Shown: positions 1-17,189 of the stretch, in pieces
How the letters are laid out: each line of letters starts with the position of its first letter
Position numbering within the stretch: the stretch's first letter is position 1
Assembly (NCBI RefSeq): GCF_003002915.1
Contig: NZ_PVTG01000016.1
Location: 1-64,000, forward strand
Direction: 5' to 3'
DNA from: Geodermatophilus tzadiensis
GTDB taxonomy: Bacteria > Actinomycetota > Actinomycetes > Mycobacteriales > Geodermatophilaceae
Length of the DNA: 64,000 nucleotides
The notes under the pieces: generated by a model
What the model saw: only the letters and a program-made list of their open reading frames with translations
Database searches by the model: none
What the model was told of the DNA's origin: nothing
Position numbers and translations under genes: made by a program

Positions 1-605
1 AACTCCTCGGGGTACTTGCTCCGTCGGCCCACCCGGGCCCTCCCTCCTCGGCTTGCGCCAAGTCTGGAGGTGTTCAGCCGACGGGGGTCACTTCAGACAG
101 CCCAGCGGACTCGTTCGTACCTGTCGATCACTGCACGCCCCGCATAGGCCCTCGACCAGTGTTCACGTCGACGACCGTATGACGATGCGCTCAAAAGGGC
201 CGCTCAGGGACATCGGCAACAGTCGCGGCGCAACTTGATCCGCAGGACAGGCCGCCATGGGCGACCGTCGGGACGGGCAGCCTCCTAGGCAGACGCCACA
301 AGGGCCGCCCTGGTCCGCGTACTCGACGGGGTAGCGACTCCCGGGGGCTAGGACCCTTCGTACGCGGGGGCGACCCCCGGACGAGCCGCGCCAGGAGGAA
401 CCCATGAGTTCACGAACGCGGCCCACGGAGCAGCGTACGGAACTGTTACGACACTAAGCCGCGACTCGCCGGGGACGCCCAAGCGTGGAGAAGCACGTCT
501 CGGGGCTGCATTTCGGCCGCAGCGTAATGACCGCGATGATGCCGCCGCCACGTCGTATGTGCCGGTGAACGTGCTCCTCGAAGGGAGGTTTGCCCTCGGC
601 GCCTC
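1..605. other. No gene supported
   Basis: Several short overlapping reading frames cross this stretch on both strands. None has a recognisable motif, a convincing ribosome binding site or a plausible composition. It lies downstream of the PLD-like gene that ends at 606. I see nothing further in it. The far end of the accessory island is not visible here, because no copy of the tRNA-Ser 3' end sequence is present. Confidence 0.5.
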
Positions 606-3470
606 CTAGGGTCGGTCCCCGTCGTGAAGGGATGACGGAGCAGCCGCAGCGCCACCCGCGGCAGGGCATCCGGACGGAGGACCAACGGCCGAATCGACTG
701 CTACTGCCGACATGGCAGTGCGCGTGAGGTCGGACGGCCTGTTCTGGGGCCGGTGGCGCAGGTCGGCGTTCCGCTCGGCCTCGCCGCCAGCGGCTATTCG
801 GCCGGGTCCGAGCAGCGTGGACAGGGCGTAGTCGTAGTGGCGAACGATCCGGTCCCGACCGGGTTCGACCCGGCTGAGGGTGCCTTCGTTGACGATGGCC
901 AGCGCCCAGTCGCCGTTGTGGTTGGTGGCCCACACACCAACGGTCGGGAGCGCGTCCGTCAGGTCGAGCGCCTTTCCAGCCGCCAGGAATGGCTTGCCGA
1001 AGGTGCCGTGGACGTGGAGCAGGTTAGGGCCATGGGCGTGCACCTCCCAGTCGGGGTAGGCGCCCTGGACGGTGGCAACGAGATCCGCGGTTGGGTCGTC
1101 TTGGACGGCCGCCGTCGCGTGTTCCATGACGGCCGCCGGGTCGATCGGGAACCCGGCGTCGTTGCGCAGCGGTTCGCTGTAGGCCCTGACCAGGTCGAGG
1201 TCGGCTTCGACCAGCAGGTGCTCGGAGGCGGCTAACGCGGCGAGGTAGGTGTCTCGATCGTGCCCTCGTGCTCCATAGGGAATCGCATCCCGCATGAGGT
1301 AGAGAGCAACCGCAGCCAGGCTGCCGAACTGGGGTTCGAGGGCGGCCGGTATGTCATCGCCATCCAGTGCGACGGTCGCGTCCGCCAGCAGGTGCAACCA
1401 GCCTTGGCCGCCGCTCGGTCCTGCCCAGAACTTGCCCGCGGTACCGATCAGCATCAGCGCGTGCATCGCAGCGCGATCGATGGCCGGTCGTCCGCGCATC
1501 TTCCCGACCAGATCGGTCAGCCACGCGCGGTATCGCCTCTGTTCCGCAGCGGTCCTGGCCCGCCGATGCGCCTCACGGTCCGGCTTTTCCGCTCCCGGCT
1601 CGGGCTCGGGCTCATTGTCCGTCCGGGAGTCCTGCTCTTCGATCGTGTCGCCTTCGACCGCTCCGTTGTCTTCCTCGGCCACTCGGTCGGCCCAGACGGG
1701 GGCGGTGGGCTCGTGGGTGTCCCCGAGCAGCGAGCCAAGACGGGGCAGGCCGCCGGTTGCGAGGACGAAGATCGACTGTCCGAGTCGCTCGACCGCTTCG
1801 TCGGTGTAGCGAGCCCAGGAATCAGGATCGTTGTCTTGGCGCCATCCGGCTGCATCCGCGAGACGGGCGCGATCTGCTGGCTCGGTGCGGCTTCCTGAGG
1901 ATGTTGATCGCGGCGGGGGAACGCGTGTCCGGTTGGTCGCCAACTTGCCAACCGCAGCGAGCCATTGCTCCGCCAGCCTGGGGTCGCCGAACAGGTCCAG
2001 GGGATCGTTTGGGGCTGAGCGGTTCCCGGTCTGCCCTCCCCGTCGTTGGGCCGCTCGTGCCGGATCGGTCAGCGGGACTGCCGGGCCGTATCGCCGCTGG
2101 AGCGGTTCGCCGGGCACCGAGGCGGCAACGAGCCACGTGAGCCGGATTCGGCTCCCGCCGGGGAAGTCCCCGTCAAAGACGGCGTCTGCTTGACCGGCAG
2201 GTATCACTCCGAGGGAGGTGTACGACTCGGGCAGGTCGTGGAAGTGCGACACCTCTACGGTGATGGGCGCGGGCGCGGGCTTGTGCAGCGTGACCGTGAG
2301 GTTGCCTTCGCTACGGACGGCTCCCAGCAGAAGTACGCCACCGGCGACCTCCGGGTTTGGTGGCCCGTCCCGCACGGTGTGAGTGGGTACGTCTGCGGCG
2401 GGCACCGGGGTCCCGTCGCCGGGGTACAGCGAAAAGGTCGTGGGCTCGGTAAGCACGCCGACTTCGCAGTTGCCCCCGCCGCTCAGTGTGCGCACCAGCG
2501 CTGCGGATGAAAGGTTCGGGCTGCCGGTGAGAGCCCACTGGCTGCCGTCCGGACGGGTGGCCTCGATGAGTTTGCCGTGTCGGTAGCGCTCGCCCGCGGC
2601 CCTCTCGAAGGTCAGGGATACGCCCGAACCATTGGCGGCTGCGACGAGCGCCGGGGGTGTCAGGACCGTCTGGCCGGGCTGGACGGCGATGGTGACGGTC
2701 CTCGGCTTGTAGCGATTGATCAGTGCTCCGAGAGCGATGCCTGCCGGGTCGTGGAACGGGGCATACAGGCGCAGCCGTTCGGCGGGGCCGTTGGGAAGTT
2801 GCTCCAGGATGGGAGTCGTTCCGCTGTGCACCAGTCGGTGTGCCGTGGGCAGCACCGGGGCGGACCGGACAAGATCGTCCAAGGCGTCGATGGTGCGGTG
2901 AATACGCGGCCGAGCCGCCGGGCTCAGCCGTACCTGCTGGTCCAGACCGCGCAGCCAGTCGGCGACTTCAACGACGAGGTCCGGACACCCTTGTTCCCGA
3001 TCTCCGGTGATGACGGTGCAGAGTTCGTCGTTGAGATGCCACCCATTGAGGGTGAGATTCCCAGAACCGATGGAGATGATGGTCCGGTCTTCACCCACGA
3101 GAATGTTGACCTTGGGGTGGAACGCACCGCCGGGTGTGGCCGCGAGGCCGGGGATGTAGGCGGTTCCGGCTGAGCGGATCGCGCGAACATCCGGGTCGAA
3201 CATCCGTGCGTCGGCGATCACGGTCACCAGCGCTCCGGCCGCGCGGGTGAGGCCGAGCAGGCGCGTCTCGAAGAAGCCGAGATCGACGTTGAATGTGAAG
3301 AACAGCGCTTCCCGGGCGCCTCCCTGGCCGCGCCGCTCCTCCGCGTAGAGGTATTCCAGCAGGGAAGACACGTGCTGGATGGCGACTCCTGGCGTCGAGG
3401 GCTCAGAGAAGGTCGAGGGCTCAGACAAGGAGGTCTCCGCGTGGCCCAAGCCGCCATGTCGCAGCCTCAC
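606..3470 (-). CDS. PLD-nuclease-like protein, last gene of candidate defence cassette
   Basis: This is a large protein of 954 aa from the GTG at 3470, or 940 aa from a TTG at 3428 preceded by GGAGA. The TTG would give an 8-bp overlap with the upstream gene and is a good alternative. The N-terminal 330 or so residues resemble a duplicated phospholipase D-like nuclease fold. HPKVNIL followed by SGNLT, and HGKLIE followed by TGSPNLS, are the HxK and SxN motifs of the two halves. The Asp of the canonical HxKxxxxD motif is not visible in either half. The remaining 600 residues match nothing I know. A low-complexity acidic and Arg-rich stretch separates the PLD part from a helical C-terminal part. 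The gene is the third of a minus-strand run with the 513-aa gene and the OLD nuclease. A nucleic-acid-cleaving effector is inferred, not shown. Confidence 0.75.
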   Translation of the reverse strand: MRLRHGGLGHAETSLSEPSTFSEPSTPGVAIQHVSSLLEYLYAEERRGQGGAREALFFTFNVDLGFFETRLLGLTRAAGALVTVIADARMFDPDVRAIRSAGTAYIPGLAATPGGAFHPKVNILVGEDRTIISIGSGNLTLNGWHLNDELCTVITGDREQGCPDLVVEVADWLRGLDQQVRLSPAARPRIHRTIDALDDLVRSAPVLPTAHRLVHSGTTPILEQLPNGPAERLRLYAPFHDPAGIALGALINRYKPRTVTIAVQPGQTVLTPPALVAAANGSGVSLTFERAAGERYRHGKLIEATRPDGSQWALTGSPNLSSAALVRTLSGGGNCEVGVLTEPTTFSLYPGDGTPVPAADVPTHTVRDGPPNPEVAGGVLLLGAVRSEGNLTVTLHKPAPAPITVEVSHFHDLPESYTSLGVIPAGQADAVFDGDFPGGSRIRLTWLVAASVPGEPLQRRYGPAVPLTDPARAAQRRGGQTGNRSAPNDPLDLFGDPRLAEQWLAAVGKLATNRTRVPPPRSTSSGSRTEPADRARLADAAGWRQDNDPDSWARYTDEAVERLGQSIFVLATGGLPRLGSLLGDTHEPTAPVWADRVAEEDNGAVEGDTIEEQDSRTDNEPEPEPGAEKPDREAHRRARTAAEQRRYRAWLTDLVGKMRGRPAIDRAAMHALMLIGTAGKFWAGPSGGQGWLHLLADATVALDGDDIPAALEPQFGSLAAVALYLMRDAIPYGARGHDRDTYLAALAASEHLLVEADLDLVRAYSEPLRNDAGFPIDPAAVMEHATAAVQDDPTADLVATVQGAYPDWEVHAHGPNLLHVHGTFGKPFLAAGKALDLTDALPTVGVWATNHNGDWALAIVNEGTLSRVEPGRDRIVRHYDYALSTLLGPGRIAAGGEAERNADLRHRPQNRPSDLTRTAMSAVAVDSAVGPPSGCPAAGGAAAAPSSLHDGDRP

Positions 3471-4962
3471 CCGCGCCTGTACCTAGTGACGGATCTCGCC
3501 GGAAGAGACCGGTCTGCTCCCCCATCCGGAGCAACTGCCACCACCGCAGGGATGCCGTCAGCGCCGTCTCGGTGTGCAGCCGGTACACGAGGTCATCACG
3601 GACTTGAACGCGGGTTGGGATGGTCACCCGGCCCGTCCGACGGTCGAAGCGGGTCTTGAGCAGAGCGATCCGCTGCGACCTGTTGATCAGCACGTCGACC
3701 AGGTCCGCGGCGAAGTCCCTCATTGGGCGGTCTGCCCACGAGTGAAGCCGATGGGCCATCCACATCGGTGCTAGTTCTTCGAACACATCGTTCTGGGCGG
3801 GCCCCTGGAACCCGAGCAGTTCCTGGCCGGTGAGTTCCCCGTGACGGCGCGCTCCGAGGGCCAAGATGCTGATGCAACGGAGGGGCTGCGGCGCCGACAG
3901 CACCTCCTCGGTCCGCTCCGCAGGAGCGGGCTGGCCCAGGTTGTCCAGGGTGTCGGGGAGGTTGCGCTGGAAATCGGCCACGGTCCCGGCTGGGACATGG
4001 TCTGCCAGCCAGTCCCGGAGTTCTTGCCGGGTGACCGTGGCGTGCTGTCCGATGCGGTCGACGAGAGCCTCCCAGAGTGACCGCCAGGCGTTGACCGACT
4101 CGTACCGAAAGACGACGCCGCGCCACTGTCGGCAGATGGCTGAATCAGCCAGGCGATCGTGTGACAACAGAGCCGGGCTGTAGGCGACGAAAGCCGTGAG
4201 GTCCCCGTCCACGGTCCGTATCGGGGATTCCTCCACCGCGGTCGTCAGCATTTGCATGGTTTGGCGGCGGATGCTGCTGGTCTCCCCGGTGGGGTCCGTG
4301 GCGGCGAACAGCCGCGCCAGCCATGCGCCATCTGTGCAGTACGCCGTACGGCACAGACACAAGTCCGGGTACTGCTCCAAGTCTTCTTCCGAGAGGGTGT
4401 CCTGCCTGGCCAAGGTCAGGACTGGGGACAGTGCTTCACGGACCATGCCCGCGTCGAAGTTCGGCCCTGGAGCCAGGCGGCTACCGGTACCCACGATGCG
4501 GAGAGTCATCTCGGAGCCGCGGTACTGCCCCATGAACCCCCAGTTGCCACGCGCGTAGGACCCGACCCCGGTCTTGGCTACCTCGCGCATGTCCAGCGAC
4601 CCATCCCGAAGGCGGACACGAACGGTGTCCGCCGCGTGTGCGGTCGCGAGCGGTTGATGGATGCCAGCACTTCGCTGTTCATGGACTTGGGATGCGACGG
4701 CCAGGACGACCTCGGACCGACGGAGCAGGTTCTGGGCCTCCGGCATGCTGAGACCCGCGGCGTCGGCCTCGTCGGCGATCAATCCGTGGAGCGCGTAGTA
4801 CCGCGCGCCAGTGGTAACCGTGGTGACTCCAGGAGCCAGGCGGGCCACCACGCGATTGAGGTACCGCTCGACGGACAAAGGGAACAGGCCGCGGATAGTC
4901 CTCGTGTCGCTCTGGACCCAACCCGGCCCATCAACCCCCACGCGCTCAACGGCGTTGCTCAC
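3421..4962 (-). CDS. Unrecognised 513-aa protein in PLD/OLD cassette
   Basis: I do not recognise this family. The protein is soluble, with no signal peptide or membrane segment. A Cys cluster (DLCLCRTAYC) lies near residue 210 and the C-terminus is rich in Arg and Trp. The start is a GTG at 4962 with AGGAGG about 10 bases upstream. Its stop overlaps the start region of the downstream PLD-like gene (8 or 50 bp depending on start choice), which suggests translational coupling. The OLD nuclease gene ends 69 bp upstream. The fixed order of OLD nuclease, this protein and PLD-like protein suggests one functional unit. This protein could be a specificity, sensor or adaptor subunit, but nothing in the sequence proves that. 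Confidence 0.7.
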   Translation of the reverse strand: MSNAVERVGVDGPGWVQSDTRTIRGLFPLSVERYLNRVVARLAPGVTTVTTGARYYALHGLIADEADAAGLSMPEAQNLLRRSEVVLAVASQVHEQRSAGIHQPLATAHAADTVRVRLRDGSLDMREVAKTGVGSYARGNWGFMGQYRGSEMTLRIVGTGSRLAPGPNFDAGMVREALSPVLTLARQDTLSEEDLEQYPDLCLCRTAYCTDGAWLARLFAATDPTGETSSIRRQTMQMLTTAVEESPIRTVDGDLTAFVAYSPALLSHDRLADSAICRQWRGVVFRYESVNAWRSLWEALVDRIGQHATVTRQELRDWLADHVPAGTVADFQRNLPDTLDNLGQPAPAERTEEVLSAPQPLRCISILALGARRHGELTGQELLGFQGPAQNDVFEELAPMWMAHRLHSWADRPMRDFAADLVDVLINRSQRIALLKTRFDRRTGRVTIPTRVQVRDDLVYRLHTETALTASLRWWQLLRMGEQTGLFRRDPSLGTGAGEAATWRLGPRGDLLV

Positions 4963-5031
4963 AGAAGCACCCCCCTCCTGACGTTATGACACGCTCCCGC
5001 AGTCCTGAGGGAGCGCACTGGGCATGCACGG

Positions 5032-6795
5032 TCAGTCAATCGGACTGCCGTTCGCGACCCGGATGAACTCGACAGCCCGCTGCACTTGCCGACGGAGGTC
5101 TCGATGGTCGAGTCGGTCGCGGGGCCAGAGCGTGCGGGCGGCCTGCGCGACGCGGATCTTGTCCACACGTGGATGCTGGCCCCGCTTGTCGGGGTCGACC
5201 GCGAGTGGGTCGTCCCATTTGCTGTCGTCGTAGGTCAGCCTGACGTGGGGATGGGTTTCGGCGAGCGCCTGGGTGAGGATGTCGAGGGGAACGTAGTTCT
5301 CGATCGTGCGACCGTCGGTGATCCAGGCGAAGCCGGGATACGCCGGGGCGTCGAACTCATCCCGAACGCGCGTCTTGGTTGCTCCGATGCGTTCTCGGGC
5401 GGATTGCTTGTCGCTGTCGATGAGGATGGCGATGTGCCGGTTGAGCGCCCGGAGCGAGATGAACTCGTTGATCTCGGGGTCGTTGGCCGTCAGGTGATTG
5501 AGCAGGCGACCGCCGTAGAACATGATCGAGTAGTGGATGCCCTCGATGAGGGTGTCGTCGATCAGGCTGATCCAGTGTGCGAGGTAGATCCGGTCGGAGG
5601 GTCCCTCGACCCAGATGACTGCGTTGGCTTGCAGCAGGTTGCTGGGGCGGTAGCCGAGGTCGGCGCAGATGTCGGCGACCTTCGCCGGTGTTCCGGCGCG
5701 CTGGACCTCCGTGCCGTTCGGGGTCTGCTGGACGTGAAAGACCGTGGCGCGGGTGTGGTCGAGCATGTGGGCGCTGTGCGTGGCGATGAGGTACTGGTTG
5801 CTGATCTTCTCGGTGAGATAGCGGACCAGTTTCCGTTGAAGGATCGGGTGCAGGTGCACCTCCGGCTCCTCCATGCAGACCAGGCTGTTCTCCAGCAAGG
5901 TCGCGGCGGCGGCCAGAATGATCACCTGGTGGACCCCTGTGCCCAGGTTCTCCAGCGGGAGCACGAGGTCGCCTCGGATGACGTGCAGCGCCTGCGCGTC
6001 GTAGGGGACATCCAGCCGGGCGCTGGGATCCTCCAGGACGGTGCGCACGAAATCGTTGACGGCCTCAAACCGCTGCTTGTCCTCCTGCCGGTCCAGCGGA
6101 GGCGCCTGAAGGCGTCGTAGCCCGGCAACCAGTCCCCGTCCGGTGTAGAAGGCGGCGTCGCTGCTGTCGTCGTCGCCCGGGACGATCTGCCGGAACGCCT
6201 CCACCGAGTGGACCGCGGGCAGCCGATCTAGCGGCGAGAACCGTTGGAGCACGCGTTGGGCGTCGTCCACGATGCCGCCACCGTGGCTTGTGAGAGCAAG
6301 GCTGAGGATGTGTAGGTGGTCGGCCATCGCTTCGGCGACCGTCCGGAGCCAGTCGGGGTCCAGTTGGTAGTGATGGACGAGCGGCGCACCGCTAGGCGGC
6401 GGCGGATTGGGGACGAACTGGAACCAGACCAGGTCGTCTCCAGATAGCCGAAATAGGTCGTGCGCGAACACCTCACGTAGCCGCCGCATCAGATCCTGGC
6501 CGCTGTGCTGGTCCGGCGACGGCACGCGCAGCGCCAGATCTGGCTCGTCAATCTCTCGGGCGATGGCGAAGCGGAACGGCGAGGCATCGGGCTGACGCGG
6601 AGCGTCGAGACCCTCGGGGACCGGCGCTCCGGCCCCGAGGTAGCGCTGTACGAACCGGAGGATGTTGGACTTTCCCGCGTTGTTCTGACCCGCGACCAAG
6701 TTCACCTTGCGGAGCGGCCCCAGCACTTGCATGTCGCCGCGGAAACTGCGGTAGCCGGTGAACCCGAATCCAGGCAGCGTCGCCATCAGCGCCAT
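5032..6795 (-). CDS. OLD-family ATP-dependent nuclease (AAA ATPase + TOPRIM)
   Basis: The 587-aa protein has the complete OLD layout. An SMC/RecF-type ATPase carries Walker A GQNNAGKS (residues 36-43), the signature LENLGTG (281-287), Walker B LVCMEEPE (305-312) and the switch His in ATHSAHMLD (338-346). A TOPRIM nuclease domain follows from about residue 392, with the acidic WVEGPSD (395-401) and ILIDSD (457-462). OLD proteins are ATP-regulated, metal-dependent DNA nucleases, and many act in phage defence (P2 OLD, GajA of Gabija). No UvrD-like helicase partner is adjacent, so this is not an ordinary Gabija pair. ATG starts exist at 6795 and 6786. It is the first gene of the three-gene minus-strand cassette and sits next to a restriction-modification pair. 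Confidence 0.9.
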   Translation of the reverse strand: MALMATLPGFGFTGYRSFRGDMQVLGPLRKVNLVAGQNNAGKSNILRFVQRYLGAGAPVPEGLDAPRQPDASPFRFAIAREIDEPDLALRVPSPDQHSGQDLMRRLREVFAHDLFRLSGDDLVWFQFVPNPPPPSGAPLVHHYQLDPDWLRTVAEAMADHLHILSLALTSHGGGIVDDAQRVLQRFSPLDRLPAVHSVEAFRQIVPGDDDSSDAAFYTGRGLVAGLRRLQAPPLDRQEDKQRFEAVNDFVRTVLEDPSARLDVPYDAQALHVIRGDLVLPLENLGTGVHQVIILAAAATLLENSLVCMEEPEVHLHPILQRKLVRYLTEKISNQYLIATHSAHMLDHTRATVFHVQQTPNGTEVQRAGTPAKVADICADLGYRPSNLLQANAVIWVEGPSDRIYLAHWISLIDDTLIEGIHYSIMFYGGRLLNHLTANDPEINEFISLRALNRHIAILIDSDKQSARERIGATKTRVRDEFDAPAYPGFAWITDGRTIENYVPLDILTQALAETHPHVRLTYDDSKWDDPLAVDPDKRGQHPRVDKIRVAQAARTLWPRDRLDHRDLRRQVQRAVEFIRVANGSPID

Positions 6796-6924
6796 CTCGA
6801 TCGACAGGGGCGGCGAGTAGTCGATAGCAATCCCCGCTCCCCTCCCCGTCGAGCGCCGGTACTACACCATGCCGTTCCCAGTGGCCGCTCTCGACGCCAC
6901 CGTGTCTGAACAGGCACTGAGAAC

Positions 6925-7160
6925 CTAGGCGACGGCGTCTCCCCAGCGTTCGTCGCCGGACGAGTGCAGCCCTGGCTGACCGTCGACCCAGTAGCAGTAA
7001 GGACCACTGTCGTCGCCGGACGGCGCGATTCCTTCGCACCCGGAGTGCTCAACGAGGCGTGCCGGTTGTCCGGTCGACCAGCGCAACCAGCACCCCGACA
7101 GCGGGTGATCCGGCCGTGCGCGGCCACGAGCGCCGCCATCTGATCTGCTGACGGCTTCAT
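6925..7160 (-). pseudogene. Possible broken small gene
   Basis: An ATG at 7160 opens a frame that reads plausibly as protein for about 25 residues (beginning MKPSADQMAALVAAHG). The plausible text then continues in another frame (containing PYCYWVDGQPGLHSSGDE) to a TAG at 6925. The two parts would join if one frameshift occurred near 7080-7110. The family is not recognised. The rest of the 455-bp gap between the OLD nuclease and the methyltransferase (6796-7250) holds nothing else I can support. This call rests only on amino-acid composition. Confidence 0.25.
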
Positions 7161-7250
7161 GCCGTCACCTACCGCGCCGAGCCACGAGTCAGGTACTGCG
7201 TCTGCGGTGCCGTCCCAGCGCTCCCAGACCCCGCGCTTCACCCTCGCGTG

Positions 7251-8762
7251 TCAGAACAGGGCGTCCGCTTCCACCGCTCCGAACCGGCGAAGCAGGCTTT
7301 CAACACGCTCTGCGTTCAGTTCGATGCCCAGCCTTGTCGCCTCACGTGAGGCCATTGATCTTGCGGCGTCGGCGCCGAAGGGAAGCAAGTTTACGTCGAT
7401 GCGCGAGAGAAGTTTCTTGGTGATCGGCCGCTTGGCGTCCCAAAAGACCAAGGACTCGACCAAATCCTCGCAAGCCGGACTCGACAGCACAGCCCAGGTA
7501 ATCAGGGCTTCCGTAGCGTCCTCGAAGGGCAGGAAGTAGCAGGTGTCATCGAGGACAACGGGCTGTCCGTTGAGGGGAGCGACTAGACGAAAGACGGGCT
7601 TCTTGTGCAGCCCCGAGATCGCGACCTTGTAGGGCGCGTAGGTGTAGGGGCCGTGGCCGAACACCGAGAAGCGTGGACGGTTGCGATAGATCGACGACTT
7701 GCGACCGTCCAGCAAGTCAGCGTTCGCGTTAAGGTATTGCCACAGGTTTGGTGCGATGTGCGCCAGCGATGCGGTCTCTGCGCCAAAAGTTGTCTGCGGT
7801 ACGATCACCCATTTCGAGAGGGTGTCGTGCCGTCCGCGAAAGAGGTCAGTGCTCTTCAGGAAGGGGAAAACATAGGCAGGTTCAAGGTTGAGCACCTCGC
7901 CTGCGCGAGTCGTGGGCTCGGGGTTGGCGACAAGTTCAAAGACCGATGATGCGTCATGCTTGAGTCCTGATCTCCATACGTAAGGGCTTGTGCCATCCGC
8001 GGAGCGAACGTGCTGATAGCGGGCAACGTCCGACACCATTCGTCCATCAACAAACCCGAACCTTGGCGCGTTGCTTCTCGGGGCGTTCAGCGACTCGTAG
8101 ACCGCCGTTGTGTAGTCCGGTTCGCCTGCCGGGTCCACGACCACAGTGAACCAGCATGCGTCGACGCCAGCGTTGAACCACTTCATTGCGTCAATCCGGT
8201 AGATAGCGGAGTCGACGATCGGGAGTCGCGCCGAGTGGGCGTACTCAATGACGTTGCGAGCCACGTGTGTCTTGCAAAGCATCCCGAGAGTGAGCCGGGA
8301 CGACCGATGCTCAGTCAGCAACTTGAGGATGATGTATTCGCACACGTCGAAGTTGGACGCCCCCAGAAGCGCGTCCAGACCGCGTGCTCCCTTGAAGTTT
8401 TCCTTCTTCGGCAGGTTATTGCTGTCCATACGGTTCAACTCGGCCGAGGTGACCCAGGGGGGGTTGCCAACAACTACGAGCCGTGCACTCGAATCCCAGG
8501 GGATGTCCCGGGCCAGATCCATGTGGAAGATGTTGGAGTTCAGAACCTTGCCATGCGCAGCCGCCGCTGCCGCATGCTCGGGCTGAATCTCAACGCCAAT
8601 GCGCTCGCTACCGGGTGCGAGTTCGGATGCAGCCTGCAAGAACGACCCGAGACCACAGGTCGGTTCCAAGACCCGGCAATGGTCATCAACGGAAAGGAGT
8701 TCTAGACACTGTCGCGCAAGTTCAAGCGGCGTCTGAAAATCACCGAACTCGTTGTTAGGCAC
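7251..8762 (-). CDS. Type II N6-adenine DNA methyltransferase
   Basis: The 503-aa protein has a class I SAM-dependent methyltransferase core. Motif I is EPTCGLGSF (residues 33-41) and catalytic motif IV is NPPW (100-103). This motif order is typical of N6-adenine methyltransferases that pair with type II endonucleases. The long C-terminal part would hold the target recognition region. The GTG start at 8762 overlaps the end of the endonuclease gene by 8 bp, so the two genes are translationally coupled with the endonuclease first. The recognition site cannot be read from sequence. The gene protects host DNA against the partner nuclease and may also mark the island. Confidence 0.88.
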   Translation of the reverse strand: MPNNEFGDFQTPLELARQCLELLSVDDHCRVLEPTCGLGSFLQAASELAPGSERIGVEIQPEHAAAAAAHGKVLNSNIFHMDLARDIPWDSSARLVVVGNPPWVTSAELNRMDSNNLPKKENFKGARGLDALLGASNFDVCEYIILKLLTEHRSSRLTLGMLCKTHVARNVIEYAHSARLPIVDSAIYRIDAMKWFNAGVDACWFTVVVDPAGEPDYTTAVYESLNAPRSNAPRFGFVDGRMVSDVARYQHVRSADGTSPYVWRSGLKHDASSVFELVANPEPTTRAGEVLNLEPAYVFPFLKSTDLFRGRHDTLSKWVIVPQTTFGAETASLAHIAPNLWQYLNANADLLDGRKSSIYRNRPRFSVFGHGPYTYAPYKVAISGLHKKPVFRLVAPLNGQPVVLDDTCYFLPFEDATEALITWAVLSSPACEDLVESLVFWDAKRPITKKLLSRIDVNLLPFGADAARSMASREATRLGIELNAERVESLLRRFGAVEADALF

Positions 8763-9453
8763 GGAGGTCCACCACTTCCCGATCGAAAGTCTTATTCGTG
8801 GCGGCAGCGATCGCTCGCCCGTACTGAAGTCTCCACTGGAGTGCGTTCGAGATTGTCAGTACACCCTGCTCTGGCACATCGTCCACGATCCGCTCGGCGA
8901 GTGACCGGCGACTCACCTCGTCCAGGGGGACATTCTTGTCTTGGAGAATGGCGTCCACGTCTTCGATCTTGGTTTCACGGGATTCCGCCCCAGTGGGGTC
9001 CGGGGTTAGAACAACATCCCTAATCAAGCGGGTGATTGTGTGATCACCTGTACGAGCGGAGTGGATGAAGACTACGTGACGAATGTCGAGGTAGGCTGCG
9101 CGCTCCTCGGGCACGTCCCGTTTCACGTAGACGACGCAGAGCAGGTGGTAGCCGAGTCCGTAAATCTTCTGCGTAGCGCTATCAAATGGCGATGAGGACT
9201 GGGGTTGTTTCAATGACGTGACCTTCAGGTCCACGTTCAAGTCCGGGAAGTCGATGCCTCGGGCGGCGTTACCGACGGTCAAGTCGTACCGTTCGGCCAG
9301 GTGTTCCTTGAACATCGACTCGACCTTGGTACCTACGGCCTTGCCGTCCGTTGCGCCATAGAGGTCGGGTAGAGGGCTGACCGCTAGTGCCTCCGCGAAC
9401 TCGACCGCAGCGGCATGGAAGAGTTCCAAGGTGATGAGCGGCAGGTCTGTCAT
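8755..9453 (-). CDS. PD-(D/E)XK restriction endonuclease
   Basis: The 232-aa protein has the catalytic layout of the PD-(D/E)XK nuclease fold. An acidic helix carries KVESMFKEHL (Glu45 or Glu50), then comes FPDLNVDLK (Pro70-Asp71, Asp75-x-Lys77), then a Gln/Ser-rich strand. Its size and its 8-bp overlap with an N6-adenine methyltransferase identify it as the cleaving half of a type II restriction-modification system. I do not recognise a close named enzyme, so the specificity is open. The start is ATG at 9453. No separate controller gene is seen directly upstream. The endonuclease is translated before the methyltransferase, so expression of the pair on entry to a new host must be balanced in some other way. 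Confidence 0.8.
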   Translation of the reverse strand: MTDLPLITLELFHAAAVEFAEALAVSPLPDLYGATDGKAVGTKVESMFKEHLAERYDLTVGNAARGIDFPDLNVDLKVTSLKQPQSSSPFDSATQKIYGLGYHLLCVVYVKRDVPEERAAYLDIRHVVFIHSARTGDHTITRLIRDVVLTPDPTGAESRETKIEDVDAILQDKNVPLDEVSRRSLAERIVDDVPEQGVLTISNALQWRLQYGRAIAAATNKTFDREVVDLRA

Positions 9454-10048
9454 CAGTGCGATAGCCCTCGGTTGTCGGTCGGTCGATGCATGTGGCAGGC
9501 CGCAAGCGGCGCTGTACGAGCGGATGGTTCAGGGCGGCACCCCGGCGGACCGGGGCGTAGCAGCACCGAACGCTATCGGCAGGATCCGACGGAGCCGGGT
9601 CGCGACACCACAGGCAGAGGATGGATCGTCCGTTCTGGGCCAGGACCCCGGGGTGTCGGAGCGTCAGAGGGGCGTCGAGACGATCGTCACGTCGGCCACT
9701 CGGTTCATTAGTCACCGCTGGCGAGCCGTCCGGGCGGGAGCAGGACTCTCGCACGGCTTGGCGTGTCGGTGGTCGCGAACGGTGTTCGACGCCTTGGCTC
9801 CCTGGCGGCTCGATGCCGCCCCGCATCTCGCCCTGGGCTCAACCTCTTCGCTGACTCAAGGGCTGGCTGCCGACTGGGGGTGCATGCCGCGAGTGCCTGG
9901 GGTCTTGCGTCAGGGCGGGCTGTCCGTCCCCGCCACCAGCGTGTCGGCTCGATCACAGCGCAACGCCGCAGGGCGTTCAAGAGGCACAGGACAGGCACGG
10001 GGGACACATGAAGTTGCAGCAGTCTAGGTCCACAAGTTCCGAAACATC
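9454..10048. other. 595-bp gap, no gene supported
   Basis: Open frames exist on both strands, the longest on the plus strand at 9431-10027. They are rich in Arg, Ser and Gly without domains and overlap the start of the endonuclease gene. The promoter of the minus-strand restriction-modification operon should lie just above 9453, but I cannot place it. The stretch may be decayed sequence. Confidence 0.4.
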
Positions 10049-10216
10049 GTGGACAGCGGCGTCATTAAGGTCGAACGGCGCTCGCTTCGCGAGATCGCCG
10101 AGTTGACCGACCGCTCGTTTTCGGCCGTCCGCAACATTCTCGATAAGCACGGTGCCCGCGGGCGAGAGACTGGCGCTCCGCCTACCAGGCGGTCCGACAC
10201 ATGCCCCGAGGTCTAG
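10049..10216 (+). CDS. Small helix-turn-helix protein
   Basis: A 55-aa frame from a GTG at 10049 to a TAG at 10214-10216 encodes a single helix-turn-helix. SLREIAELTDRSFSAVRNIL has the spacing of the short actinobacterial HTH proteins often seen as xxREIAExTGRSYGxVHxLL, followed by HGARGRE. An in-frame stop lies a few codons before the GTG, so the gene cannot be much longer at its 5' end. It reads toward the NYN-domain gene that begins 89 bp downstream, and the two may form a regulator/effector pair. The recognition is by eye from the HTH pattern. No clear ribosome binding site precedes the GTG. Confidence 0.5.
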   Translation: MDSGVIKVERRSLREIAELTDRSFSAVRNILDKHGARGRETGAPPTRRSDTCPEV

Positions 10217-10305
10217 GCCCCCGGCCCATCTGGCGCCAACGTGCGCCTGGGCGCCTGGGCAGGCACTTCTCAAATAGTGTCGGTGGCCCAGTGCACCGTC
10301 CACCC

Positions 10306-10784
10306 ATGTCGACGAGGCCAGAGATGGAGCGGGCGAGGATGGCCCTTCTCTGGGACCTCGACAACGTGTCCACTCCTGTCGCGGACCTCGGCTCCCTCGC
10401 ACGAGCGCTCTGTGGCCTCGTCGAGCCCGATGCGCCACGGCTCGCATCGGTGCACTGGCGGGCATTCCGGTTGGCCGGGGACACACTGCGGGCGAACGGG
10501 ATCAGGGTGCTGTGCGGAGCCGCACCCCCCAGGGAGCCGATAGGGTGCTCCTCCGGCAAGCCCGGCGGCTGCGCAAGCGCGGGGTCGAGCGGTTCATCGT
10601 GGCCAGCAACGACAACGCATTCGCTCCTATCGCGGCCACTGCGGAGGTACACGTGGTCACTCTGACCGGTGACCTGGTGAGTGGGCGACTCCGAGCCGTG
10701 GCTCAGAGCATCACGGTCCTGGTCCGTGCAGGGGAAGGTTGGCGCATGGAACGTGAGACTCCTGGCACCATGACCGACATCTGA
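10306..10784 (+). pseudogene. NYN-domain nuclease gene interrupted by -1 frameshift
   Basis: Frame 1 from ATG 10306 encodes an N-terminal part with ALLWDLDNVSTPV, the hallmark acidic strand of NYN/PIN-like RNases (LabA/DUF88 type), up to VLCGAAP. The rest of the domain (GADRVLLRQARRLRKRGVE, then FIVASNDNAFAPIA with the second acidic site) lies in another frame that ends at 10784. The two frames meet at a run of six C at 10525-10530. One extra C, or a -1 slip, would restore a continuous protein of about 159 aa. The gene may be inactivated, wrongly sequenced, or expressed by slippage. NYN proteins are metal-dependent RNases, often found in defence or RNA-decay settings. The small HTH gene sits just upstream. 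Confidence 0.65.
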
Positions 10785-10913
10785 AAGCGGGCCGTGGCTA
10801 GCCGTTCCGTAATCGCGGAATCTCGGATCGCCAAACCTCTTCGAAAGATCGATCCGTCCAGCACCCTCAGGCTGCTAGACCCGCCGAGCAGCGTTGGCGC
10901 GGGTCGCGCGTCC

Positions 10914-11321
10914 TCACCTCCCAGTCCTGCCTGGAGGCAGTCCGCTCGCTGTCTTCTGTGCGAGGAAGGCGCTAGTGCGGTCGCAATACCGCCGGATGTT
11001 GACGGCCAAGCGGTCAGCAACCTGACGCGGCGACGCATTCTCGTGCAGGTGCCTCTGAGCCTGGCGAAGATGAGCGTCGAGGTCATACAGACCAGCCTTC
11101 AGTGCATTGATGTCGTCTTGCGTGAAGCGCACGGACGGCGCAACTCCAAGCCGATCCGCCAGGACCGCCTCGCGAAGTCTCGCCCGACGGCGGCGCTGGT
11201 GCTCTGCATTCCCAGCGCGACGCCGGGAAACCCTGCATGGATCGCAGAAGCGACGCGGGGGGACAACGCGGCCTCGCGAGCACTGTTCGCAGCGCATTGA
11301 GCCAGCCTGCACATCAGACAC
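10914..11321 (-). CDS. Small Cys-pair (putative zinc-binding) protein
   Basis: The chosen start is the GTG at 11321, preceded by AGGAGA at a good distance, giving 135 aa. A longer frame opens at 11372. The N-terminus has two cysteine pairs, CEQC and CDPC, about 16 residues apart, which fits a small zinc-binding knuckle. A strongly basic stretch (RRRRARLREA) follows, then helices. The family is not recognised. A basic zinc-knuckle protein would suit DNA or RNA binding. It is convergent with the NYN/HTH unit and divergent from the recombinase-like gene. Confidence 0.55.
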   Translation of the reverse strand: MSDVQAGSMRCEQCSRGRVVPPRRFCDPCRVSRRRAGNAEHQRRRRARLREAVLADRLGVAPSVRFTQDDINALKAGLYDLDAHLRQAQRHLHENASPRQVADRLAVNIRRYCDRTSAFLAQKTASGLPPGRTGR

Positions 11322-11608
11322 AAGAATCTCCTGGGGACGATCGGTCACCTGGCCGTCAGCATGGCCATACACACCCCAGCCGTCGGCTCTAGTTCCAAAC
11401 CTACAGGTCAGGAAGCCGTGTGGCCGTTAGAAGCGGCGAAGGGATCCACCGTTCGGGTTAATCCGGGCGTCAGCACAGTCAGCATGCGCGTCACACCTGT
11501 CTGGGCGATTTCAGACCTTTATCGGGTCCGAAACCGCACCTGGCCGACGAGAGAAAACGTCTGAGGCCAGCACCCAGAAAGAACTAGGCGTTCAACAAAT
11601 ACGAGCCG

Positions 11609-12739
11609 TTGACCGCGCCACCGACTCCGCGTCCTCAGGCCATTCCCGTGCCGCCAGTGGTTGCTGGAATCACGGGCGAGCCGATTGCCGACTCTGACAC
11701 CGAGGAAACCTGGGACGAAAGCGATGTGACCGTGCGGGGCACGCGCCGCCTCAGCCGTATTTGCTCTCCCGAGCGCGCCCGGGCCTATGTGGAGTCCTAC
11801 GCACCCGCGGACCGGCATGACGTGAGCCTCCGGGATTGGCAAGCGCTGGCACCGGTCATCCGCCCAGCCTTGGCCTCGCTCTGCGTCAGGGACAGCGCCG
11901 TGGTCCGTCAGATGCCGGTCCACCTGGATGCACTCGCGCGCATTGGCGCGTGGGTCTTGAAGGAAACGGGCGCTGTGGCTGACATCCGGGATCTTCTGAA
12001 CCCGGACACGATCAATCGTTGGGTCGTCGCTGCGCGGACGGCCCAGGAAGCCGGAAGTCTTGCCGCGTACCGGTCCCGGATTCGGCGGCTGGCTCCGCTT
12101 CTGTGGCCGGACTGCCCCTGGTCACACCAGCAGGGTCGGGTGGCGCGTCGCAAGCCGCAGCCGCCCTACACCGCCGAACAAGTTGCGCGGTTGGAGGCTG
12201 ACTGTCGTAACCAGCCTACCGAGCAGGCGCGCCACCGCGCGGAGGTCATCTTGACCCTGGGGCTCGGCGCCGGACTGGACGGACGGTGGCTCCCTGACGT
12301 TCGCCCCGATGACATCTTCAGCCTGCCAAGCGGCGAGGTCTGCGTCTGGGTGCCCGAGCCGGATCGGTACGTCCCCGTTCTCCAGAAGTTCGCGCCTCGC
12401 CTGCTCGATGTGAAGTCGCGCGTGCCGTCCGACGAATCCCTCCTGGGCGGCCCCGTTCGCACCAACAAGAACACCGTCAGCCATCTGGTCGGGCGCATCA
12501 AGCAGCCGGGCGCGCACGCGACCGATCCGCGCGCGGCACACCCCAGGCTGAACCCCACCCGTCTGCGCAACACCTGGCTGGTGCACCACTTGACGGCCGG
12601 AACGCGGCTTCCAGAGTTGCTTGCGGCGGCCGGACTCCAGGGTTTGAACAGCCTGGAGGGACTTCTTCAGCACGTCCCCGTAAGCGATGACGCATTGGCG
12701 AACATCGGCCGTGTTGCGAGGGCTCATGCCCGGCGTTAG
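11609..12739 (+). CDS. Tyrosine-recombinase-like protein without visible catalytic Tyr
   Basis: The 376-aa frame starts at a TTG (11609); an in-frame GTG near 11650 is an alternative. A helical N-terminal region resembling the core-binding domain of phage integrases covers about residues 85-180. It is followed by a region reminiscent of the catalytic domain, ending in LNPTRLRNTWLVHHLTAGTR, which matches the HxLR helix of tyrosine recombinases. The box-II His is replaced by Asn, the box-I Arg is not in its usual place, and no Tyr is found after the HxLR-like helix. The protein is therefore probably not an active recombinase alone and may act as a DNA-binding partner of the DDE protein downstream. 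Confidence 0.6.
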   Translation: MTAPPTPRPQAIPVPPVVAGITGEPIADSDTEETWDESDVTVRGTRRLSRICSPERARAYVESYAPADRHDVSLRDWQALAPVIRPALASLCVRDSAVVRQMPVHLDALARIGAWVLKETGAVADIRDLLNPDTINRWVVAARTAQEAGSLAAYRSRIRRLAPLLWPDCPWSHQQGRVARRKPQPPYTAEQVARLEADCRNQPTEQARHRAEVILTLGLGAGLDGRWLPDVRPDDIFSLPSGEVCVWVPEPDRYVPVLQKFAPRLLDVKSRVPSDESLLGGPVRTNKNTVSHLVGRIKQPGAHATDPRAAHPRLNPTRLRNTWLVHHLTAGTRLPELLAAAGLQGLNSLEGLLQHVPVSDDALANIGRVARAHARR

Positions 12740-13031
12740 TCGGCCGCCGCGGCGCCCAGGACCGCAGGGAATCTCTTTCGCCCCTGCATCGACAACCGGC
12801 GCACCGGCGCAGGCCCCCGCCTCCCCAAGTAGCACTCGGCCGCGCCGCCCGGCTGCGGTCACGGTTGCCGATCACCCTGGTCGCCGCCAGCCGTCCCGGC
12901 GGCATGTGCCGGTGCTTCCAGTGCACGGCGTGCTGTCTCTTCGCGAAGCCCGTCGGGTGGTTGGCCTCGGGGTTGCGCCCGCAGGCCGGAGGGCGAACCG
13001 CGGCCGGTACGAAATCAACCAGAAGGTGATC

Positions 13032-14714
13032 ATGGCAGCACCCACGCCGGAATCATTCGACATCGCCATGCGAATGGCGGACCGTTGCGCGGCCGTGGCA
13101 GTGATGTCAGTGGCAATGGCGTCCAGGACCGGGCGCCCAGGTGACCTGAACTACCGCGCCTTCCACGTGGCGGCGCAGATCAATGGATTGGCGCCGAACC
13201 AGCGGAACCTCATCAGCAACGTAACGAAGGTTCTTCCTGGACTCACCAACGCGCAGCGCGAACGCCTGGGCTTCATGCGGCCTGTCCGGAGCAACGGGCT
13301 GTATGACGTGGTACGCCGCTACCTCGACCGCCTCACCGCCGTCCTCGATGAGGGTGTGGTCATCCCCCACTCCCTCTCCTTCGGGTTCGGCACCTTGCTG
13401 CCGGAGACCTATCGCCGCAAGTCCGACGGGTCTGCCAACTGGGGCGTTCCGGAGGGGTACCTCGACGGCTCGGGTGCTTGCACGGAACCGCTCGTCCTCG
13501 TGCACTCGGACTGGCACCTACACGCGACCACCGTCTCGGGCATCGATCCCACGCTGCCCATCTCCGGCGCCGTAGCAGTCGATGGGACAGAGTTCGAAAC
13601 GTCTGCGCGGCTTCATGGCCCGAACAGGGATGTAGACCTCGACGGGGAGATTGAATACGACCCGGAGACGACTGGAGCAATGCGGACGCGGGGGGCTCGC
13701 CCGCTCGGCATCGGACCGGACGATCGAAAGGTCTACACCCTCGATTTCGACAGCCGCAGTGGCTACCGCACCGTGACGAACGGGCGCAGCGGCGGCAGGT
13801 ACACCGGCTACGAGGTGCATCTCGCCGTGCAGGTGCCCGCACTCCGGTGGACGAACTACGTGGACCAGGTGACGTTGGGACCGGCTGTTCCCGGATTCAT
13901 CGTCAACGCGACGATGACTCCTGCGGGAAGTCACCGCGCGAATGCCATCATTCCGGCCCTGCTCGGCAGCAAGGCAGCAGGCCAGGAACTGAAGGAAGTC
14001 ATCGCCGATCCCGGGTACAGCCTGTGCTCCATGGAGACGTACCACCTGCCCCTACGGCTGGCCGGGATCAGCGTGCTGCACAAGCCCATGACTCATCAGC
14101 GGGGCATCCGTCCCACCGTCGACGGAGCCGTTCTTTGCGATGACACGCTCTTGCATCCCGCGACGCCGAGGAACCTCCTCGCCTCCCGCTCCGCAAGGAG
14201 TGCCGGATCCGCACCGCTTCCCTACGCACCGCCTGGCAGCGACGAGGCAACCCGGCGGCAGTACGAACAGCCCTTCAACCAGCGCGCCCTATGGCGCCTG
14301 CGCCTCAACAGGACGGACTCGGACGGGACCGCATGGTTCACGTGTCCCTTCTGCGAAGGAGCGCTGTCGGCCACCAGTCTCACGGTCCACAGCGGCAGGA
14401 CGCCCGGCCCAAGGGCCGTGCCCGTCAGCGGTCACGTTGCCCACCTGAGCCGGTGCTGCAACGGCCAGATCAGGCTCGCCGCTGAAGAACTGGGCCGCTG
14501 GCAGAAGATCCCAGCCGGAACCACGGCCCACTGGAAGGCGTATCACGCGCGGCGCCAGCAGGTGGAGAACGCGAACAGCGCGCTCAAGAGCAGCATGACC
14601 CAACTCGACAAGAAGCACACGCTCGTCTTCGGGCTGTCGAAGCGGCGCACCCTCCTTGGGTTCACGCTCGCGGCCTACAACTACAACGTCGGCGCTGCAC
14701 ATCAGGCCCGGTAG
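13032..14714 (+). CDS. DDE-transposase-like protein with zinc-finger insertion
   Basis: The start chosen is ATG 13032, with AAGGTG just upstream. The frame is open back to 12687, but that part has biased composition. The 560-aa protein carries a DDE triad pattern: AVDGTEF (Asp184), IADPGYS (Asp326) and QQVENANSALK (Glu512). Between the second Asp and the Glu lies a cysteine-bearing insert (CPFC at 438-441, CC at 475-476) that looks like a zinc finger. This matches transposases with an RNase H fold, but I cannot assign an IS family. Terminal inverted repeats were not found. The upstream neighbour is the recombinase-like gene on the same strand, and the 292-bp gap between them holds no other gene. 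Confidence 0.7.
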   Translation: MAAPTPESFDIAMRMADRCAAVAVMSVAMASRTGRPGDLNYRAFHVAAQINGLAPNQRNLISNVTKVLPGLTNAQRERLGFMRPVRSNGLYDVVRRYLDRLTAVLDEGVVIPHSLSFGFGTLLPETYRRKSDGSANWGVPEGYLDGSGACTEPLVLVHSDWHLHATTVSGIDPTLPISGAVAVDGTEFETSARLHGPNRDVDLDGEIEYDPETTGAMRTRGARPLGIGPDDRKVYTLDFDSRSGYRTVTNGRSGGRYTGYEVHLAVQVPALRWTNYVDQVTLGPAVPGFIVNATMTPAGSHRANAIIPALLGSKAAGQELKEVIADPGYSLCSMETYHLPLRLAGISVLHKPMTHQRGIRPTVDGAVLCDDTLLHPATPRNLLASRSARSAGSAPLPYAPPGSDEATRRQYEQPFNQRALWRLRLNRTDSDGTAWFTCPFCEGALSATSLTVHSGRTPGPRAVPVSGHVAHLSRCCNGQIRLAAEELGRWQKIPAGTTAHWKAYHARRQQVENANSALKSSMTQLDKKHTLVFGLSKRRTLLGFTLAAYNYNVGAAHQAR

Positions 14715-14799
14715 TCATCCGGTGAGGCGAACCGGTGCCCGAGCCCACTGTGAAGGCCAACAGAGTCGCCCTCCTGCTACCGAGCCTGGCGAGTTGGCG

Positions 14800-15069
14800 T
14801 CAGGGGACGTGCGTCTCATCGAACCCAGAGCCGACAGGGTCGACGTAGAAGTCCCGCACCAGGGTGCGGGCCTTCACCTCGATCGGGTCGGAGTTGGAGC
14901 GCAGTGGGAAACGCTGGAAGTCCGCGTCGGTCGCAGCCAAGGCGGCGACACACTCCGCACAGTTCGGCGCCCCGCACGGCAGGTGCCCGTTGCGCTTGTC
15001 CCAACCCAGATACCAGTACGCCCGAGCCCTCGGGTCGCTGGGGACACGCAAGCGGAGGGACCGCGTCAT
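14800..15069 (-). CDS. Small hypothetical protein
   Basis: From ATG 15069 the frame encodes 89 aa. The frame is open up to 15168, but the extra residues are unlikely. It has a short Cys motif (CGAPNCAEC) in the middle, which may bind zinc, and a C-terminus with VRDFYVDPVGSGFDETHVP. A GAGG lies about 9 bases before the start. The family is not recognised. It is convergent with the DDE-transposase-like gene and divergent from the repeat-protein gene. Confidence 0.45.
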   Translation of the reverse strand: MTRSLRLRVPSDPRARAYWYLGWDKRNGHLPCGAPNCAECVAALAATDADFQRFPLRSNSDPIEVKARTLVRDFYVDPVGSGFDETHVP

Positions 15070-15308
15070 CTCAGTAATCCTCGAACAAACGTTCGGCCAT
15101 GTGCCGATCTTGACCCGTCCAGTTCGCGTGTGCAAGGCCGTCTCGTTGCTCCCCGCGCCGCCCCTCACCTCAGGCTCCGTGACCTAAGCAGCCTGGCGGG
15201 CGACTGCGCTAGGCAATCGCAGCGACCGTCGGGGATCCGGGACTGTCGTACCGCTGAGGAACAATCAGGCGGTGACGCGGGATTCGTAGGACGGCTCGAA
15301 GATTGTTT

Positions 15309-15365
15309 GTCGCTCCGGCTCGATCTCGCGGCTAGTAGGTAGCGGCCCTACTACACCGGAGCGAC
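15309..15365 (+). promoter_or_regulatory. Nested hairpin burying the ribosome binding site of the repeat protein
   Basis: A perfect 10-base inverted repeat (GTCGCTCCGG at 15309-15318 and CCGGAGCGAC at 15356-15365) encloses a second one (TAGTAGG at 15333-15339 and CCTACTA at 15347-15353). The downstream outer arm contains GGAG (15358-15361), the only Shine-Dalgarno-like element before the ATG at 15369. In RNA this could hide the ribosome binding site. It could also be a DNA operator. No known riboswitch class is recognised. Confidence 0.45.
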
Positions 15366-15368
15366 CCC

Positions 15369-16517
15369 ATGTCTGAAGAGAAGCCACCCGCTCACCTGCG
15401 GGGCGTGAGCCACATCGTCACGTCGTCCCAAATCAAGGCGGCGAACCGCGCGCTCAACGCCCTCCCGAAGCCGCCCGCGGTCTTCGACGTAATGCCGTCA
15501 CTGGTGCCCGCGCTCCCGAAGTTCACCGTCCCTCAGGTAGCGGAGATGCACGCCAACCTGGTCCGGAACCTGGCCCCCGCGCTCCCGAAGTTCACCGTCC
15601 CTCAGGTAGCGGAAATGCACGCCAACCTGGTCCGGAACCTGGCCCCCGCGCTCCCGAAGTTCACCGTCCCTCAGGTAGCGGAAATGCACGCCAACCTGGT
15701 CCGGAACCTGGCCCCCGCGCTCCCGAAGTTCACCGTCCCTCAGGTAGCGGAAATGCACGCCAACCTGGTCCGGAACCTGGCCCCCGCGCTGCCGAAGTTC
15801 ACCGTCTCTCAGGTAGCGGAGATGCAGGCGACCTTCCTGCGCAACCTGATCCCCAAGATCGAGATTCCTCGCGCCGCCTTCGACTTCGTGCCTCGTCTTG
15901 TCAGCGACATGCTGCCCCACTGGACGAACGTGCATGACTGGCTGTCGACGAGCCTGCGGATCTGGCGTGACTTGGCCGACGTGGGAAAGGCGTCGGCCGC
16001 CTGGGCGCGTCGGGCGCTGCGGGCCGCCCGTGCGGCTCGGGACGCGGTACTGCACGGCCGCTGGGACCTTGTGCGCGCGTTCCTTCGGGAGTGGCTCGAC
16101 TTGCGCCACCCCGAAGACGCCCACCTCCAGGCCGCTGCCGATGCTCTGCTGGACCCGGGATGGAAGCCCGATGAGGTGGACGTGTGGGCAGTCCCGGGCC
16201 TGCTCGCAGACCTGAGGAGGGAGACGGTTAGCGGGGCTCGACGCCACCGGCCGGTTTACGAGACCCAGATCAACGGACGAGCAGTAGGGCTCCTGGATCG
16301 GCCGATCGCCCGTGCCGACGGAACCGTCGGCACCGCCCTCGACCAGGTCCGGGACGAGGTGCCAGTTCCCGAGCCTGCGGACTACGGATTTCACGACGAC
16401 CGGCTCAATCGGGTCTTGGCCTTGATGACCCCGGACGAGGGCAAGGTCTGCCTGGCCCACCCCGGTCCCGGCTGCACCTGGGCCGACGCAGCGGTCATCG
16501 CGGGGTTCCCCCCCTGA
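15369..16517 (+). CDS. Tandem-repeat protein with probable +1 frameshifted C-terminus
   Basis: The 382-aa frame starts at ATG 15369. Residues 47-161 are five tandem 23-residue units (PALPKFTVPQVAEMHANLV plus RNLA). The first four are nearly identical at DNA level and the fifth has diverged. The rest is a soluble helical part with no family I know (WLDLRHPEDAHLQAAADALL, then WAVPGLLADLRRETV). The frame ends at a TGA (16515-16517) straight after seven C. In the +1 frame the text continues smoothly as PEFGETVRRKRIRVVKEVSR to a TGA at 16591-16593, adding about 25 basic residues. This extension looks like the true C-terminus. CCC-TGA is a known type of +1 slippage site, but a simple indel is equally possible. 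Confidence 0.6.
   Translation: MSEEKPPAHLRGVSHIVTSSQIKAANRALNALPKPPAVFDVMPSLVPALPKFTVPQVAEMHANLVRNLAPALPKFTVPQVAEMHANLVRNLAPALPKFTVPQVAEMHANLVRNLAPALPKFTVPQVAEMHANLVRNLAPALPKFTVSQVAEMQATFLRNLIPKIEIPRAAFDFVPRLVSDMLPHWTNVHDWLSTSLRIWRDLADVGKASAAWARRALRAARAARDAVLHGRWDLVRAFLREWLDLRHPEDAHLQAAADALLDPGWKPDEVDVWAVPGLLADLRRETVSGARRHRPVYETQINGRAVGLLDRPIARADGTVGTALDQVRDEVPVPEPADYGFHDDRLNRVLALMTPDEGKVCLAHPGPGCTWADAAVIAGFPP
15507..15851 (+). repeat. Five 69-bp in-frame tandem repeats
   Basis: Units begin at 15507, 15576, 15645, 15714 and 15783. Units 1 to 4 differ by only one or two bases, while unit 5 has several changes (SQVAEMQATFLRNLI). Near identity at third codon positions points to recent expansion or gene conversion rather than old duplication. 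Confidence 0.9.
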
Positions 16518-16985: not shown

Positions 16986-17102
16986 CGGCGGCTCCTCGCG
17001 ACCTCCGGGTTCTCGACACCCCCCTCGATCCCTCCCAGCAGGGCGAGAGCGGATCGAGAGTTTCGCGTATCCAAGGCAGCGGCTTACGCGTAGCCGCCGG
17101 AG

Positions 17103-17189
17103 CGGAGGGCGTGGGATTCGAACCCACGATGGGTGTGACCCCATAGCGGTTTTCAAGACCGCCGCCATCGGCCGCTAGGCGAGCCCTCC
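17103..17189 (-). tRNA. tRNA-Ser (anticodon UGA)
   Basis: The 87-nt gene folds as a class II tRNA. The acceptor stem is GGAGGGC/GCCCTCC with discriminator G. The anticodon stem GCGGT/ACCGC encloses TGA (plus-strand TCA at 17153-17155). It has a long variable arm, a T arm with GGGTTCGAATCCC, and no encoded CCA. It reads UCA serine codons. Its 3' end faces the accessory island, making it the likely attachment site. Confidence 0.95.

Follow-up and report, generated by a model that had tools for sequence, protein, structure and literature searches.

P0002 and P0001, two adjacent genes on the minus strand, probably make up a conserved actinobacterial two-gene operon that is related to zacA-zacB of the Azaca system and lacks zacC, and the products of this pair most likely process invading DNA. 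The genes were found in the window, which is the whole stretch of 64000 bp that was analysed and starts with the first base of contig C16 of the 4.87 Mb Geodermatophilus tzadiensis genome. Three neighbouring units are present, an OLD nuclease gene, the P0002-P0001 pair and a type II restriction-modification (RM) pair, and their genes are as follows.

606..3428, minus strand: P0001, ZacB-like tandem PLD (Tdp1-like model) protein of ~940 aa; TTG 3428 is the likelier start
3421..4962, minus strand: P0002, 513 aa, weakly ZacA-like partner with a confident, mostly helical model
5032..6795, minus strand: P0003, Class-1-type OLD ATPase-TOPRIM nuclease, a neighbour outside the conserved pair
7251..8762, minus strand: P0004, type II DNA methyltransferase (profile match) of the separate RM unit
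8755..9453, minus strand: P0005, type II restriction endonuclease (profile match) of the separate RM unit

A sequence-only reading of this DNA had described three tightly spaced minus-strand open reading frames (ORFs), and all are present (P0001 at 606-3470, P0002 at 3421-4962 and P0003 at 5032-6795), with the start of P0001 now corrected. The P0001 ORF reaches back to a GTG at 3470. Among the relatives of P0001, 28 loci offer a start at -4 and nine offer one at -8, and the genes of the pair often overlap by 4 or 8 nt. Because of the starts available in these relatives, P0001 probably begins at TTG 3428, in which case the protein would have 940 aa and its gene would overlap P0002 by 8 nt. The end of P0003 is separated from the start of P0002, on the same strand, by 69 nt that contain a GC-rich inverted repeat, the fold of which was no better than those of shuffled sequences (z 0.01), and a terminator scan of this gap found nothing.

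The genes had also been placed in a tRNA-associated island. The GC content is 62-68% over bases 1-16000 as against 71-78% beyond, and a tRNA-Ser gene is located at 17102-17189; the low-GC stretch and the tRNA gene thus stand, and the island and its association with the tRNA are candidates. The RM pair reported to adjoin the genes is real and of type II, with PADLOC matches for the methyltransferase (E 2e-113) and the endonuclease (E 7e-65) encoded upstream of the three genes, and relatives of the P0005 endonuclease were found on plasmids from several phyla. The description of a defence-type setting also held, as probable defence genes lie in a low-GC stretch beside an RM pair. The first 96 bases of the window recur exactly at C28:1-96, with 95 bases recurring at C2:442421-442515 and a 77% copy in C9, hence contig C16 probably breaks at a repeat. 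The copy in C2 is located 5' of a 375-aa ORF that appears by eye to be tyrosine recombinase-like (locus L107). A 675-aa ORF close to the island genes (12687-14714) gave a weak match to an IS1182-family transposase (E 3.3e-9), its 36 bits falling far short of the cut-off, 270.

Homologues of P0002 and P0001 were adjacent, on the same strand and in the same order at 73 of 75 loci, or 68 of 70 after removal of five repeats, and the two exceptions are a contig edge and a fragment. Loci L039, L049, L074 and L081 were removed as repeats of L019, L020, L025 and L021, whose contigs are equal to theirs in length, and L058 because its neighbourhood is identical to that of L022, though it is unproven that they come from the same genome. 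P0002 homologues were encoded by 11 of the 298 genomes searched in the order and by 3 of the 26 in the genus, the genome studied here being included in both counts, and this patchy distribution was counted in favour of a defence role for the two genes. They were also found in six plasmid records, and the 61 loci in named genomes, found with one peptide pattern, were all actinobacterial judging by their titles. Pairwise distances for P0001 and P0002 were correlated (Spearman 0.88, reached in 0 of 1000 permutations; 64 pairs), a result that vertical co-inheritance alone would also produce. The set of 64 P0001 sequences omits, from the 70 loci, L017, L020, L036, L043, L048, L055 and L086, where genes are missing or incomplete; alignment A2 was made without L017 (split) and L020 (cut), and alignments A3 (40 rows) and A6 (20 rows) are selections from the loci. 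In L017, the PLD gene (3948-8044) is split in two with ~1.5 kb between the parts, beside a DrmD-DrmMI pair. Searches of phage records and viral contigs yielded no P0002 relative, a scan of viral sequences with ZacA likewise yielded none, and a PHROGs search with P0001 and P0002 returned nothing up to E 0.01. No description of the pair was found, among the matches listed, in the open-licence PMC literature excluding preprints.

P0003 had been recognised as an OLD-family protein with ATPase and TOPRIM domains, and this identity was upheld. It exceeded the Pfam cut-offs for AAA_15 and AAA_21, and its OLD-like TOPRIM match (16.9 bits) was itself below the Pfam cut-off of 23.2. A Walker A motif at residues 36-43 was found in five of six aligned sequences (window included), the sixth row being cut at the N-terminus, and the Walker B residues and the TOPRIM residues E397, D401, D460, D462 and E499 were invariant in all six. 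The top PADLOC match was the GajA model (E 2e-22; among the best 25 of 141 families), fused AriAB gave a weaker match (E 2.6e-16), and the best solved relative by sequence was the OLD-family structure 6p74 (E 9e-7, residues 264-350). The predicted combination of an ATPase with a TOPRIM domain carrying metal-binding acids, and no UvrD helicase beside it, places P0003 with the Class 1 OLD proteins such as P2 Old and that of Thermus scotoductus (TsOLD), with which it shares the pattern of acids (TsOLD catalytic residues in PMC7049728). However, P0003 adjoins other defence-type genes, its sequence similarity to 6p74 is limited, and in one relative, from Burkholderia (L111), a second ATPase of weak similarity is encoded immediately upstream. 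Genome searches detected relatives of P0003 in 3 of 296 and 2 of 396 genomes, with the genome studied here counted in both, and nine plasmids also carry them. Beside one OLD relative, in L090 (7141-8676), is a gene for a 511-aa protein with a match to the NucS C-terminal domain.

The sequence-only reading had joined P0003 to the pair in a three-gene cassette, and co-occurrence of the three genes was not found from either side. At the other 70 non-redundant loci no P0003 match at E 1e-8 adjoined the pair, among the matches listed and in the flanks available, and an OLD profile made from two sequences detected only two remote proteins at the pair loci, in L051 and L054, each ~5.5 kb from the pair. 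As the upstream flank is <2 kb in L041, L059, L061 and L069, a more distant OLD gene would be missed there. Likewise, a P0001 or P0002 relative was found near P0003 relatives in none of eight loci (three genome and five plasmid; two of the genome loci have little flanking sequence), and no common partner was seen in the five plasmid regions, one of which has the second ATPase mentioned above. What remains of the single conserved unit is thus the pair, and a three-gene system was rejected as unlikely. A true three-protein system, in which the OLD protein senses or cleaves, P0002 bridges and P0001 cuts, OLD having replaced the Azaca helicase in this lineage, would fit the 69-nt spacing of OLD and P0002 on one strand, the lack of a ZacC match in the genome and the reported coupling of OLD-type ATPases with other endonucleases (PMC12839542), but is very unlikely given the separate occurrence of P0003 and the pair in the flanks available, and the inverted repeat in the 69-nt gap also counts against it, though this repeat folds no better than shuffles. 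As no OLD gene was found beside the pair elsewhere in the flanks available and Class 1 OLD genes have been described as single genes (PMC10568477), the pair was taken as the conserved unit, and P0003 is best read, from these comparisons, as a separate OLD nuclease that neighbours it.

The description of P0001 as a large PLD-nuclease-like protein was borne out by two HxK...GSxN motifs and a Tdp1-like model, although the match to Pfam PLDc_2 scored 22.4 bits and so did not reach its cut-off, 27. At both half-sites the H, K, N and E residues were retained in 63-64 of 64 sequences. The predicted model is of moderate quality (pLDDT 73, pTM 0.54), and its best matches in the PDB were human and yeast Tdp1 (E 3e-8, probability 1.00), with a TM score of ~0.5 when normalised to the target and 0.24 when normalised to the query length. 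Two HxK...N half-sites in a predicted Tdp1-like fold, matched over ~430 columns, suggest that P0001 belongs to the Tdp1/PLD superfamily, from which it differs in having only 12-15% identity, a long C-terminal half and a constant neighbour, P0002. PLD-type enzymes provide an analogy for a catalytic role of the conserved glutamates, which may also be catalytic in P0001. Tdp1 has two HKN motifs and forms a covalent histidine intermediate (PMC11405833).

P0002 had been reported as a 513-aa protein that could not be placed, and this remains so, as no match was found in Pfam or NCBIfam up to E 1 and a weak match to the ZacA profile is the only PADLOC family lead. Its predicted model is confident (pLDDT 90, pTM 0.88) and mostly helical, and no fold match to the model was found in the PDB at E 0.001. 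A sequence search of the PDB with the P0002 profile returned only designed helical proteins (E 0.26 and 0.53). As a confident model has no significant match in the PDB, it is plausible, on the strength of the prediction, that the fold of P0002 is new.

Azaca is a system of ZacA, ZacB and ZacC. In 2023 its mechanism was still listed as unknown (PMC10482375), and ZacC is a helicase (PMC12278908). Profiles were compared using eight Azaca loci, in seven of which ZacC is present, the eighth (L103) stopping at a contig edge ahead of that position. The PADLOC ZacB model matched 12 of 13 members of the P0001 family at E up to 0.01 (best 9.7e-15) and the P0001 profile aligned with ZacB by hhalign (E 2e-10), indicating that P0001 is a remote homologue of ZacB. 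The match of P0002 to ZacA is weaker (E 0.0059). Six of 15 P0002 family members reached E 0.1 or better with the PADLOC ZacA model, the strongest at 1.8e-5, ZacA being the only PADLOC family matched, and two further members gave no ZacA match at E 0.01; in hhalign the alignment had E 1.6e-4 and 50% over 69 N-terminal columns, or 22% with fewer ZacA rows. Both ZacA proteins scanned matched Pfam DUF6361.

The pair thus resembles Azaca in the order of the A and B genes, which overlap or abut, in the alignment of P0001 with ZacB across both PLD sites, and in an N-terminal stretch of 69 columns over which P0002 weakly aligns with ZacA/DUF6361. However, none of the 15 P0002 family members matched DUF6361, and P0001 exceeds the ZacB proteins compared by ~300 residues. 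No ZacC match was found in the genome studied here, where the local view is limited by the end of the contig 605 bases past P0001, and in the 70 pair loci ZacC gave only short matches to helicase motifs, in eight of them. As ZacC was not found, the pair was not classed as Azaca; the proposal that the genes match no named system therefore holds in part, P0001 being a remote relative, and P0002 a possible one, of Azaca proteins, the third of which was not found here. Judging by these profile comparisons, the pair may work like the Azaca A-B core or derive from it.

The B component of the PADLOC candidate system PDC-M27 matched the PLD site region in every one of the 13 members of the P0001 family (E 5e-7 at best), but in P0001 the match spans one motif only and no P0002 family member matched another M27 component; the C model of this system matches helicases. 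P0003 resembles GajA of Gabija and AriA of PARIS, but its direct neighbours, P0002 and the RM methyltransferase P0004, match neither GajB nor AriB. P0001 weakly matched DrmC of DISARM (E 0.012), but no DrmA or DrmB was detected in the neighbours scanned. None of these four partners was matched by the other six proteins scanned with PADLOC, P0003 itself being represented by its best 25 of 141 families. Gabija and DISARM were rejected as their partner genes were not found among the proteins scanned, in agreement with the sequence-only reading. A search of the genome for DrmD gave two short helicase-domain matches only, and the same model also fires in all 14 control genomes.

Of 69 pair loci, 28 had defence-type genes nearby, compared with one of 40 control stretches (p 4e-6), the latter drawn from six genomes and unmatched by genome to the pair loci. 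The queries (HsdR, HsdM, two DrmD, DrmMI, BrxC and a type III methyltransferase) came from six pair loci, and the fragment L086 was left out. The enrichment was 22 of 63 without the loci that supplied the queries (p 6e-5), and 16 of 57 with repeats of one Streptomycetaceae arrangement removed (p 8e-4). A defence role of the pair is likely on this evidence. However, no tested defence gene was present near 41 of the 69 loci, and DrmD-type helicases were found near several pair loci, where a helicase of another family may serve as partner. At two Pseudonocardia loci the pair follows, on the same strand, a kinase-like gene and a type I restriction-like gene, so that it may merely assist other systems instead of acting as a separate one. 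Such an accessory role, with the pair plugging into the restriction systems of its host (type I RM, DrmD/DrmMI, BrxC or type III), would account for the enrichment and for the diversity of the restriction-type neighbours, but this explanation seems unlikely, as 41 of 69 loci lack every tested family and the neighbours vary in type and orientation, which mere clustering in islands would fit equally.

Several further arrangements were observed at the pair loci. On the Mycobacterium avium plasmid pS2b (L015), which is typed as mobilizable, the pair is located directly before a type III-like methyltransferase gene and an annotated restriction endonuclease gene. A 727-aa protein with no Pfam match is encoded between HsdM and a divergent pair in nine Streptomycetaceae loci (L033, 7372-9555, and relatives). 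Large proteins of one cluster (~1100-1290 aa) are encoded convergently behind the pair in L012, L013, L030, L031, L035, L040 and L052; a CHAT domain was shown for L013 and is annotated in L012 and L013, and the gene is a second candidate for a role in defence.

As a member of the PLD superfamily, P0001 would be a phosphodiesterase that needs no metal, with the two half-sites forming one Tdp1-like active site, and is predicted to act on DNA via a covalent phospho-histidine intermediate. P0002 would be its dedicated partner, either recognising the target or restraining the enzyme, and together they most likely cleave or process invading DNA alongside restriction-type systems. The same HKN sites and Tdp1-like model would also suit an end-processing or repair enzyme with a true Tdp1-type role, carried on mobile islands and without a role in defence, but this is very improbable in view of the remote kinship with ZacB and perhaps ZacA, the patchy distribution and the restriction-gene neighbourhoods. 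The region is thus probably best described, from its sequence relationships, as a two-gene immune module beside an independent OLD gene and an RM pair.

More tentatively, it is possible that the pair is an undescribed two-gene actinobacterial immune system that dispenses with the Azaca helicase. A partner with a new fold would then control a Tdp1-like PLD enzyme, perhaps recognising protein-capped or otherwise marked ends of invader DNA, and the system would have been redeployed next to many restriction systems as a plug-in. The OLD gene beside it bears on the question, described as open (PMC10568477), of whether one Class 1 OLD protein alone gives broad protection to bacteria. The Tdp1-like site of P0001 points to concrete biochemical tests, and a natural relative of Azaca without the helicase would allow the ZacA-ZacB core to be studied alone.
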